From the NCBI GenBank assembly GCA_947499125.1, contig CANMMP010000004.1, positions 124,001-188,000 on the forward strand: a DNA stretch of 64,000 nt. The letters run 5' to 3'. Below the pieces are notes generated by a model. It was not told the origin of the DNA, did no database searches, and saw only the letters and a list, made by a program, of their open reading frames with translations. Origin of the DNA: an uncultured Pontibacter sp. Lineage in GTDB: Bacteria; Bacteroidota; Bacteroidia; Cytophagales; Hymenobacteraceae. Made by a program: the position numbers and the translations under genes. Below are positions 28,034 to 31,598 of this stretch, piece after piece (position 1 is the first letter of the stretch; every line of letters begins with the position of its first letter).

Positions 28034-28068
28034 ACTTTCCTTTGTATAGCGATTTCCCAAAGGAAAGT
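28034..28068. promoter_or_regulatory. 11-bp perfect inverted repeat, probable HxlR operator
   Basis: ACTTTCCTTTG (28034-28044) and CAAAGGAAAGT (28058-28068) are perfect inverted repeats 13 nt apart. They lie between the divergent monooxygenase and hxlR-type genes. A minus-strand -7 element (TAATTTTG, 28017-28024) for the monooxygenase lies next to it. Confidence 0.7.
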
Positions 28069-28091: not shown

Positions 28092-28442
28092 ATGGCTAAT
28101 AAAATGGGATACCTGTCCTGCCTGGACACGGTAAAGCCGGTGCGGGATGCAATTGAGGTGATTAATGGGAAATGGAAGCTGCCCATTATCATTTCGGTGA
28201 TGACAGGCAATGAGCGGTTCACCGATATACAGGAGAGCATTCCCGGGATCACGCCAAAGGTGCTGGCTAAGGAATTAAAGGACCTTGAGCAGCACCAACT
28301 GATAAAGCGAGTGGTAATAGATGATTACCCGGTAAAGATCTTGTATAAACCGGAACCGTATGCCGATACTTTAACACCGATCATCGATGCTTTGAAGGGA
28401 TGGGGACTCAACCACCGGAAGAAAATTTTTGAAAAGGAGTAA
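28092..28442 (+). CDS. HxlR-family transcriptional regulator
   Basis: A 116-aa winged-helix regulator: VRDAIEVINGKWKLPIIISVMTGNERFTDIQESIPGITPKVLAKELKDLEQHQLIKR, then a wing and a C-terminal helix (LTPIIDALKGWGLNHRK). A conserved N-terminal Cys (residue 10, LSCLDTVKPV) is the usual electrophile- or redox-sensing position in this family. It probably binds the palindrome at 28034-28068 and controls the divergent monooxygenase and itself. Confidence 0.9.
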   Translation: MANKMGYLSCLDTVKPVRDAIEVINGKWKLPIIISVMTGNERFTDIQESIPGITPKVLAKELKDLEQHQLIKRVVIDDYPVKILYKPEPYADTLTPIIDALKGWGLNHRKKIFEKE

Positions 28443-28460: not shown

Positions 28461-28526
28461 TTATCAAAATGATAGGTATCTGTTATGTAATGGTATGAAG
28501 TCTGTACAAGCGACATGGTAACTTTG
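28461..28526 (+). promoter_or_regulatory. shared 15-mer and promoter of the isochorismatase-like gene
   Basis: TTATCAAAATGATAG (28461-28475) lies 43 nt upstream of the -7 element TAACTTTG (28519-28526). The same 15-mer with one change occurs, with the same orientation and the same 43-nt spacing, upstream of the second monooxygenase gene (30395-30460). Confidence 0.65.
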
Positions 28527-28559
28527 CAATATCATTTAGCTTAATAAAAAAGATAAATT

Positions 28560-29108
28560 ATGAGTAAGAAAGCATTGCTTGTCATAGACATACAGAACGA
28601 TTATTTTGAAAACGGAGCCTGGGAACTGGAAGGACCGGTAGAAGCGAGTTTAAATGCAGCTAAGGTCATTGATCACTTCAGAAAGAATGATTTGCCAATA
28701 GCACATATCCAGCATTTTGCAGCTGATGTTAATATGCCTTTTTTTCAACCGGGTACAATTGGAGTAGAGACCCATGAAAATGTAAAACCGCTTGAAGGAG
28801 AAAAGCTTGTTACAAAGTACTATCCGAATAGCTTCAGAGAGACCGACCTACTGGAGTATCTGAAGGCCAATGATGTGACGGAAGTGGTGGTGACTGGTAT
28901 GATGACACACATGTGTGTGGATGCTACGACAAGAGCTGCCAAAGACTTCGGATTTGAATGTACGGTGATCGGAGATGCCTGTGCTTCCCGCGATCAGGAG
29001 ATAAATGGAAAAGTAGTGAAAGCAGCCGACGTACATCATGCCTTTTTGGGAGCTCTTTCCTTCTTTTATGCGAACGTCCAGAATGCAGATGAATTCCTGA
29101 CCGCCTAA
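28560..29108 (+). CDS. isochorismatase-family cysteine hydrolase
   Basis: 182 aa, soluble. The catalytic triad of the family is visible: D10 (LLVIDIQNDYF), K86 (LVTKYYPNSF) and nucleophile C119 (MMTHMCVDATTRAA). The substrate could be isochorismate, a nicotinamide-like amide or another small molecule; sequence alone does not decide. It is not in one operon with the HxlR gene (117 bp gap with its own promoter) but probably belongs to the same response. Confidence 0.9.
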   Translation: MSKKALLVIDIQNDYFENGAWELEGPVEASLNAAKVIDHFRKNDLPIAHIQHFAADVNMPFFQPGTIGVETHENVKPLEGEKLVTKYYPNSFRETDLLEYLKANDVTEVVVTGMMTHMCVDATTRAAKDFGFECTVIGDACASRDQEINGKVVKAADVHHAFLGALSFFYANVQNADEFLTA

Positions 29109-29129
29109 TTAAAGAAAATTTAAAAGTAC

Positions 29130-29164
29130 AAAAGCCTCCTGCCATTAAACGGTAGGAGGCTTTT
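29130..29164. terminator. terminator after the isochorismatase-like gene
   Basis: A 14-bp stem with one G-T pair (AAAAGCCTCCTGCC with GGTAGGAGGCTTTT) followed by T residues; lies between convergent genes. Confidence 0.88.
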
Positions 29165-29234
29165 TATTTTTCTTATGAGAACGATGCGATTGGTCCTAAA
29201 ATTTTCTCAAGGCTACAGATGCCCTGAGGAAAAA

Positions 29235-30359
29235 TCAAGCTTCCAAATTAGGCATCTGGTAAGCATCTGCGATAAGCTCAGCCGAGCGGAGTATACCCTT
29301 CGGTGAGTGTCCAAGGTTTACGATCATCAGTTCGTCAGCCCCTGATCGTTTCTGAACTTCATTCAGACTCTTGACAACTGTTTCGCCTGTTCCATAGAAC
29401 ATTCTGTGTCTCCAGCCTTCCGTGATTTGTCTTTCCTGCGCTGTGTAGGGGTATCTGGCAAGATCTTCAGGAGAAGGCATCAGATAAGACAGTCCTTGCA
29501 TCATCCGCATCATACTGTGCGCAAAACTCTCGGTCTGCAACAATGCTTCTTTTTCTGTCTCGGCAGCATACACCCCAAAGCATGCCAGGGTGTGTGGTTT
29601 GTCAAGCACTTCAGAGGGCTGGAAATTCTTCCTGTACAGGTAAAAGGCCATCAGCAGGTTTTCAGGTGCCAGCTGGGCTGCAAAAGCAAATGGCAAGCCC
29701 ATTTTTCCTGCCAATTGTGCCGAGTAACCCGATGATCCTAGTAGCCACATGGAAGGTCGGTTAAAAGAACGTGCTATCCCGTTTTGGCGATCCTGCCCCG
29801 GACCCGGAACCGCCCATACTTTATCTTTATAGGAATCATACTTAGGGAAATCATCATCTAGAAAGTGGAGCAGTTCCTGCAGCTGTTCGGTGTAGTTTTC
29901 TACTCCTAAACTGTTACCTCTTCGTAGTGCTGTGGCAGTATAGCTGTCAGTACCCGGGGCGCGTCCAATTCCCAAGTCTATCCGGCCTGGGGCCATCGCT
30001 TCCAGCATACCAAACTGTCCTGCCACTACAAGCGGTGGAAAGTTTGGCAGCATCATTCCGCCCGCACCAAGGCGTATCTGTTTGGTTTCTCCGATTAACC
30101 TGGAGAGCATAACTGCTGGTGAGGTAACAGAAATGGCCGGCATGGAATGATGCTCCGCAACCCAATAGCGTGCAAACCCACGTCGGTCAGCAAGCTTGGC
30201 CAGCTCAATGCTGTTTTGTATAGTTTCTATGGCAGAATAACCTTGTCCTGTCACAGCAAAATCGAGGATCGATACTGGTAAAGGCGCATTACTTTTCTTT
30301 ATTAATGGTTGGAAAGCAACTGATTGTTCTACTTTGGGTGTGTTATTGTTATCAATCAT
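29235..30359 (-). CDS. LLM-class flavin-dependent oxidoreductase, luciferase-like (MsnO8 type)
   Basis: 374 aa. Luciferase-like TIM barrel: VSILDFAVTGQGYSAIETIQNSIELAKLADRRGFARYWVAEHHSMPAISVTSPAVM, IRLGAGGMMLPNFPPLVVAGQFGMLEAMAPGRIDLGIGRAPGTD, and SMWLLGSSGYSAQLAGKMGLPFAFA. All typical features are present and length is normal. It belongs to a different branch from the monooxygenase at 26732. Its promoter (-7 TAATTTTG on the minus strand, 30395-30402) carries the shared 15-mer 43 nt upstream. Confidence 0.9.
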   Translation of the reverse strand: MIDNNNTPKVEQSVAFQPLIKKSNAPLPVSILDFAVTGQGYSAIETIQNSIELAKLADRRGFARYWVAEHHSMPAISVTSPAVMLSRLIGETKQIRLGAGGMMLPNFPPLVVAGQFGMLEAMAPGRIDLGIGRAPGTDSYTATALRRGNSLGVENYTEQLQELLHFLDDDFPKYDSYKDKVWAVPGPGQDRQNGIARSFNRPSMWLLGSSGYSAQLAGKMGLPFAFAAQLAPENLLMAFYLYRKNFQPSEVLDKPHTLACFGVYAAETEKEALLQTESFAHSMMRMMQGLSYLMPSPEDLARYPYTAQERQITEGWRHRMFYGTGETVVKSLNEVQKRSGADELMIVNLGHSPKGILRSAELIADAYQMPNLEA

Positions 30360-30394
30360 TTCTTATTTCAATTCTTACAGTATAAAATCTGTTG

Positions 30395-30460
30395 CAAAAT
30401 TAGTTTGAAAGAAGAAGTGAGCTTATATCAGGAATGTCCTGAAAACTACCATTTTGATAA
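30395..30460 (-). promoter_or_regulatory. promoter and operators of the luciferase-like gene
   Basis: Read on the minus strand: TTATCAAAATGGTAG (30446-30460), 43 nt, then TAATTTTG (30395-30402). Between them lies a perfect palindrome, TCAGGA-ATG-TCCTGA (30428-30442). The remainder of the 366-bp gap up to 30725 shows no gene. Confidence 0.6.
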
Positions 30461-30725: not shown

Positions 30726-31598
30726 ATGGAAACACTTAAATTTCTGAAGACGGAGTGTGGCGTAGAAGTTCTCCTGAACGTACTGCACTTTACAAGCGCT
30801 GACAGCGACTATTTAAAAAGAGTACCGTTCAACACGGATTTTTTTGAGATCGTTTTCTGTAAGAAAGCGAAGGGGAAACTCCTGTTGAATGATCACCAGA
30901 TCGAACTGACTGGCAACAGCGTCGTTTTTCTTTCTCCATACCAAAAAAGGCAGTGGCATTTCGATGAGGGTGAGCAGGATTTTACCATACTACTCTTTCA
31001 GGAGGACTTTCTGAACGATTTCTTTGCTGATAAGCTCTTTGCCTATCGATTGCTATACTTCTACCAGCTGGACTATCCGTTGAAAATGGAGGTGGGTAAA
31101 GAAAAGATACAAAGCTTCTGCGCGCTTCTGACCGAAATAAAATCAGAGCTTGTAAATCCAAAGGCCGATAGTGGGCATATTATACGGTCGCTGCTCTATT
31201 ACATTTTACAGAAGCTGAACAGGGAATATGCTGAAGTCAACCAACTGAAAATGGATAGGGACAATGACCACTATGCCTTTCAGTTCAAGCGGTTGGTAGA
31301 GCTAAATATAAAACATAAACAGCGGGTAAGCGACTATGCCGACATGCTGGGTATCACGCGGGTTTCTTTAAACAAAGCAGTAAAAGAGCAATTCAATGTA
31401 ACGGCCAAACACCTGCTCAAGCAAAGGCTGCTGCTTGAAATAAAGAACTACCTTTTCCATTCAAAGCTTACGTTCAGTGAGATTCCCTATGAACTTAACT
31501 TTCCCGAGCCCAATCACCTGATGCGTTTTTTCAAAGCCCAGACAGGGATGACTGCAGGAGAATTTTTGCAAGCAAATGGTAAAGACGCCACTATGTAA
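30726..31598 (+). CDS. AraC-family transcriptional regulator
   Basis: 290 aa. The N-terminal cupin-like sensor domain covers about 1-140 (FEIVFCKKAKGKLLLNDHQIELTGNSVVFLSPYQKRQWHFDEGEQDFTILLF). The C-terminal part has two helix-turn-helix units (KQRVSDYADMLGITRVSLNKAVKEQFNVTAKHLLKQRLLLEIKNYLFHSKLTFSEIPYELNFPEPNHLMRFFKAQTGMTAGEFL). Divergent from the luciferase-like oxidoreductase gene, which it may control. Confidence 0.92.
   Translation: METLKFLKTECGVEVLLNVLHFTSADSDYLKRVPFNTDFFEIVFCKKAKGKLLLNDHQIELTGNSVVFLSPYQKRQWHFDEGEQDFTILLFQEDFLNDFFADKLFAYRLLYFYQLDYPLKMEVGKEKIQSFCALLTEIKSELVNPKADSGHIIRSLLYYILQKLNREYAEVNQLKMDRDNDHYAFQFKRLVELNIKHKQRVSDYADMLGITRVSLNKAVKEQFNVTAKHLLKQRLLLEIKNYLFHSKLTFSEIPYELNFPEPNHLMRFFKAQTGMTAGEFLQANGKDATM

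Follow-up and report, generated by a model that had tools for sequence, protein, structure and literature searches.

A tandem promoter element predicted to link an isochorismatase-like and a luciferase-like gene of Pontibacter to one AraC-family regulator

The window, the 64,000-nucleotide stretch of Pontibacter DNA analysed here, carries a gene for an isochorismatase-like cysteine hydrolase (28560–29108, forward strand; Pfam PF00857) and, on the reverse strand, one for a luciferase-like oxidoreductase of the MsnO8 family (29235–30359; PF00296, TIGR03558). Both are predicted to be regulated genes, and their label as stress genes is a reading of their enzyme families. An HxlR-type regulator (28092–28442) and an AraC-family regulator (30726–31598, forward strand) are encoded nearby. 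An earlier note on this DNA placed a shared 15-mer 43 nt upstream of the −7 element of both enzyme genes, and we find this distance to be exact in each promoter. Upstream of the hydrolase gene, TTATCAAAATGATAG (28461–28475, forward strand; located by sequence, genome scan and upstream alignment) precedes the −7 box TAACTTTG (28519–28526, forward strand), which follows the consensus TAnnTTTG given in the accessible part of PMC9723704. Upstream of the oxidoreductase gene, TTATCAAAATGGTAG (30446–30460, reverse strand; located by sequence and genome scan) precedes TAATTTTG (30395–30402, reverse strand). The note had also described the two upstream regions as otherwise dissimilar; they are not wholly so, since both carry a second TGRTA motif exactly 21 bp downstream of the first: TGGTA at 28491–28495 (forward strand), 21 bp past the first TGATA, and TGATA at 30426–30430 (reverse strand), 21 bp past the first TGGTA. 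Given this conserved second half-site, the 15-mer can be ruled out as the entire site; we refer to it as the distal half-site and to the second TGRTA as the proximal one.

The 15-mer occurs without mismatch only twice in the 3.98-Mb genome (16 contigs), and these copies are the two promoters. When up to two mismatches are allowed, the 15-mer alone is near background (50 matches, compared with 40 for the reversed pattern), and with up to three it matches 10 times in the window against a mean of 6.4 in shuffled sequence. Among the 67 upstream stretches of the window we found a single pair that agrees in 14 or more of 15 letters at an equal offset, not more than 100 nt before TAnnTTTG; such a pair arises in two of 100 dinucleotide shuffles of the window. 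The evidence from the window by itself is thus moderate and post hoc, and it is comparative evidence that decides whether the pair is real. In a scan of the window with up to five mismatches, no gene was preceded by a site other than the two already known; the remaining matches were weak and lay elsewhere, and none pointed at the AraC gene itself. The genome likewise holds only two qualifying sites; a third match with two mismatches (C1:810387) looks spurious.

The complete operator spans 36 bp and consists of TTATCAAAATGRTAK followed by TTTGRTAK, with its TGRTA cores 21 bp, or two helical turns, apart and with 23 nt between the second TGRTA and the TAnnTTTG −7 box. The window's hydrolase is 91–93% identical to counterparts in five Pontibacter species, and in an alignment of the six upstream regions the DNA is poorly conserved save for one block. 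This block begins just 5′ of the 15-mer, ends at the start codon and varies internally in the stretch that separates the second half-site from the −7 box. We then used the hydrolase protein alone, and not the DNA pattern, to fetch 80 loci (908 kb), which contain 45 distinct distal half-sites. TGRTA lies at exactly +21 in 40 of the 45, the tandem spacing of about 21 bp that characterizes class II AraC/XylS operators, and [TG]AnnTTTG is found at the window's gap in 42; the reversed pattern has no match in the same 908 kb. The layout recurs 5′ of isochorismatase-like genes in Pontibacter, Sphingobacterium, Flavobacterium, Chryseobacterium and Hymenobacter, and also upstream of luciferase-like, MBL-fold and MATE genes. 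Most of the pooled sites have TGGTA; these were picked with a pattern, so that independent support comes only from the unspecified positions 1, 7–9, 15, 29–30 and 36.

We compiled 71 distinct sites with up to two mismatches, some from loci that had been fetched by the pattern itself. Five precede nothing of the kind, and the remaining 66 precede recognizable genes, assigned by sequence text as 30 isochorismatase-like, 18 MBL-fold, 10 luciferase-like (nine plus the window's), five MATE, two HAD and one SIR2-like. Pfam confirms five of the MBL-fold, two of the MATE, one of the HAD and one of the luciferase-like assignments, in addition to the window's two genes. The SIR2-like assignment corresponds to a weak NCBIfam match only; this protein, from Myroides albus (L099:4143–5042), has no Pfam match and is encoded downstream of the site, directly after the AraC gene. 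Further family genomes contributed 14 sites, before MBL-fold (12) or isochorismatase-like (two) genes, one of them (L240) identical in sequence to L128. Three genus genomes have a luciferase-like gene with an internal stop, a truncation or a short remnant (L063 in G048; G043:C3:535746–536018; G041:C11:415243–415326), and all three retain the isochorismatase-like gene.

The distribution of the site follows a single group of AraC-family orthologues. In the 80 protein-fetched loci (orthologue cut-off at least 45% identity), a site with up to two mismatches is present in all 27 loci with an AraC orthologue and in four of the 53 without. The genomes of these four encode an orthologue elsewhere (56–83% identity, one copy interrupted), and no orthologue was found in the eight of 49 site-less genomes that were checked, the best match being a paralogue with 36% identity. 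Among 50 genomes of the Pontibacter group (at least 54% identity), all 17 that have the orthologue carry the site when two mismatches are allowed, as do two of the 33 that lack it, and with one mismatch the counts are 16 of 17 and none of 33; G010 and G044, scored as being without the orthologue, have only paralogues of 33–34% identity. At the family level (204 genomes including these 50, with the first −7 letter widened to T or G and the best 6–11 candidates scored per genome), sites with up to one mismatch occur in 29 of 30 genomes with and none of 174 without the orthologue, and the thirtieth (G036) has a two-mismatch site adjoining its AraC gene. Fisher's test on the family table yields 2e-34, a descriptive value only, as it overstates independence and ignores shared descent. 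The reversed control gives one match in the genus and one in the family.

An even draw of 296 genomes across the phylum contains two with an orthologue (best 6–11 candidates per genome) and three with a site, and both orthologue-bearing genomes carry it. The third (G252) has the site without an orthologue among its best 6–11 candidates and a downstream gene of another kind. Altogether this draw yields four matches, two of them the window's, against three for the reversed control, so single one-mismatch matches in distant genomes are no more than chance would give. In the class (395 genomes), five genomes have an orthologue among their best 6–11 candidates, and in all five a site lies nearby. 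The most distant of these orthologues (45% identity) is accompanied by a variant site with TGGCA in both half-sites, plus GAATTTTG; the parallel change is what would be expected of one protein reading both half-sites.

Extra AraC copies are accompanied by extra sites, four of each in G032 and two of each in G829. The four G032 copies (L212, L223, L225 and L226) form AraC–operator–MBL-fold units that are identical over ∼2.24 kb and sit near contig ends, and they may represent a repeat, either mobile or arisen by duplication, that the assembly failed to cross. In the Pontibacter genome G008 (L219, L224), stops interrupt the AraC orthologue and both operator sites are kept; the persistence of sites despite an interrupted regulator gene counts against AraC as their reader. 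The co-occurrence is also driven in part by linkage, the AraC gene and its target often being neighbours, and by shared descent. Few of the cases have the regulator outside the locus.

The earlier note had proposed one regulator common to both genes, and this is supported by the way in which the fixed-geometry site tracks one AraC-family orthologue group across genomes. Of the two local regulators it named as candidates, the AraC-family protein fits the distribution of the site and the HxlR-type protein does not. We conclude that the two-part element is very probably the landing site of the AraC-family regulator encoded at 30726–31598, whose assignment draws on co-occurrence, domain content and a structural model.

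This protein contains an HTH_18 domain (E = 3.2e-14), and its predicted structure has a mean pLDDT of 79.5. The regulatory domain of the model matches those of RhaR (TMt 0.70–0.74) and AraC (TMt 0.57–0.62), full-length structures of ToxT and Rns are also matched (E from 1.6e-9, TM about 0.4), and there is a further match to the DNA-binding domain of MarA (E = 3.2e-3). The model thus has the two parts expected of the family, a predicted cupin-like N-terminal regulatory domain and a predicted C-terminal double helix-turn-helix. Three residues of the two helix-turn-helix segments, Arg-212, Val-219 and His-264, do not vary among 32 aligned orthologues. They differ in every one of the three paralogues examined (34–35% identity), whose 3.8-kb loci contain no operator match within four mismatches. 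Arg-267, Phe-269, Leu-215 and Asn-216 are common to the paralogues as well and are uninformative for specificity. All 32 aligned orthologues have Cys-11 and 25 of them have Cys-132; of the three paralogues, two lack cysteine altogether and the other is without Cys-11. Model confidence is low around Cys-11, and its conservation near the N terminus suggests that the protein may sense thiols or electrophiles.

The position of the operator relative to the promoter bears on the sign of regulation. Start mapping in a Flavobacterium assigns positions −12 to −5 to the −7 box in the accessible part of the report (PMC9723704). By this count the 15-mer extends from −70 to −56 and the proximal half-site from about −40 to −36, that is, beside or over the −35/−33 region. 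We find no −33 element: in a pool of 65 sites, conservation stays at or below 0.45 bits at every position that separates the proximal half-site from the −7 box, and the element thus appears to be replaced by the proximal half-site. A half-site beside the −33 region at such a spacing is the class II activation geometry of AraC-type proteins. We consider it highly likely, from this arrangement and the co-occurrence, that the AraC-family protein binds both 36-bp operators and activates both genes in a class II manner. A dimer would occupy the two tandem half-sites of each promoter, with its promoter-proximal subunit at about −40 to −36 in place of a −33 element and in contact with RNA polymerase at a sigma-A −7 promoter. 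The hydrolase and the oxidoreductase would then be switched on together, possibly in response to a reactive or toxic small molecule.

Repression is known for some AraC-family proteins, and the regulator might occupy the same sites and repress both genes, since a protein bound at the −33 region could block polymerase. We judge this improbable. A conserved −33 element is absent, the spacing to the −7 box is constant in the 42 of 45 half-sites noted above, and the geometry resembles that of araBAD (PMC4760080) and of the 21-bp direct repeats used by AraC-type regulators of rhamnose genes (PMC3870299), as far as the accessible parts of both papers describe them. Activation is the more likely sign, given a site beside the −33 region and no conserved −33 element, and it is from this layout that we infer it.

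That the HxlR-type protein binds the 15-mer is very unlikely. The isochorismatase promoter does contain TATCA-AAA-TGATA (28462–28474), a perfect palindrome around three central nucleotides, and HxlR genes (26–74% identity) are commoner near AraC orthologues, in 12 of 27 loci as compared with four of the 53 without AraC. However, the TGGTA of most sites breaks this palindrome, and the Pontibacter loci L091–L095 have the site with no HxlR gene detected within the fetched flanks; we reject HxlR as the binder because the site does not follow its gene. The HxlR gene moreover has a candidate operator of its own, a perfect 11-nt inverted repeat (ACTTTCCTTTG, 13 nt, CAAAGGAAAGT) at 28034–28068, between the NtaA-like and HxlR genes. 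The repeat, retained in part upstream of a Flavobacterium HxlR with 74% identity (L118), likely serves HxlR itself. A chance similarity in AT-rich upstream DNA would be compatible with the pairs seen in two of 100 shuffled windows and with the near-background count of the 15-mer at two mismatches, but it has next to no probability in our view, as the fixed geometry is kept across genera and tracks one regulator.

Activation by the AraC-family protein would assign these enzymes a definite regulator and operator within a defined set of genes, and would offer a well conserved case of how an activator is placed with respect to the Bacteroidota −7 promoter. Genes with a common switch likely have a common inducer, which would place the isochorismatase-like, luciferase-like, MBL-fold and MATE proteins under a single physiological signal. 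A broader reading, possible though doubtful, is that of an undescribed Bacteroidota detoxification regulon, in which AraC orthologues sense reactive compounds through Cys-11 (and through Cys-132 where present) and switch on species-specific enzyme sets from one rigid promoter layout. If true, these sets would consist of isochorismatase-like hydrolases, MsnO8-type flavin oxidoreductases, MBL-fold hydrolases and MATE pumps.

In the literature searched, which leaves most subscription journals outside its coverage, the core TATCAAAATGGTA appears in no paper; we found none on the operator or on an AraC regulon with isochorismatase, luciferase-like and MBL genes, nor, with looser terms, any such paper by title among the entries listed, and none combining AraC, cysteine, electrophile, HxlR and redox. 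One candidate, PMC10848828, was set aside: its accessible part concerns a different AraC protein, and the isochorismatase mutation that it mentions is also in the parent strain.

The best NCBIfam match of the window's regulator, over most of its length, is the 4-hydroxyphenylacetate regulator HpaA (TIGR02297), with a score of 82.6 bits against a curated cut-off of 274.65; in contrast to HpaA, the targets seen here belong to other families. Direct repeats of 21 bp, described in the accessible part of PMC3870299, are also a feature of AraC-type rhamnose regulators predicted in Bacillales, Enterococcus and Bacteroides, whose regulons serve sugar catabolism. E. coli AraC at araBAD similarly is an AraC-family protein with two proximal operator sites (araI1–araI2), and binding to araI2 recruits RNA polymerase there, according to the accessible part of PMC4760080. 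The window's regulator differs in its operator sequence, in its Bacteroidota promoter, in having no sugar genes among its targets and in the N-terminal cysteine conserved among its orthologues. The regulon thus appears to be undescribed so far, whereas the kind of regulator, AraC-type with 21-bp direct repeats, is already known.
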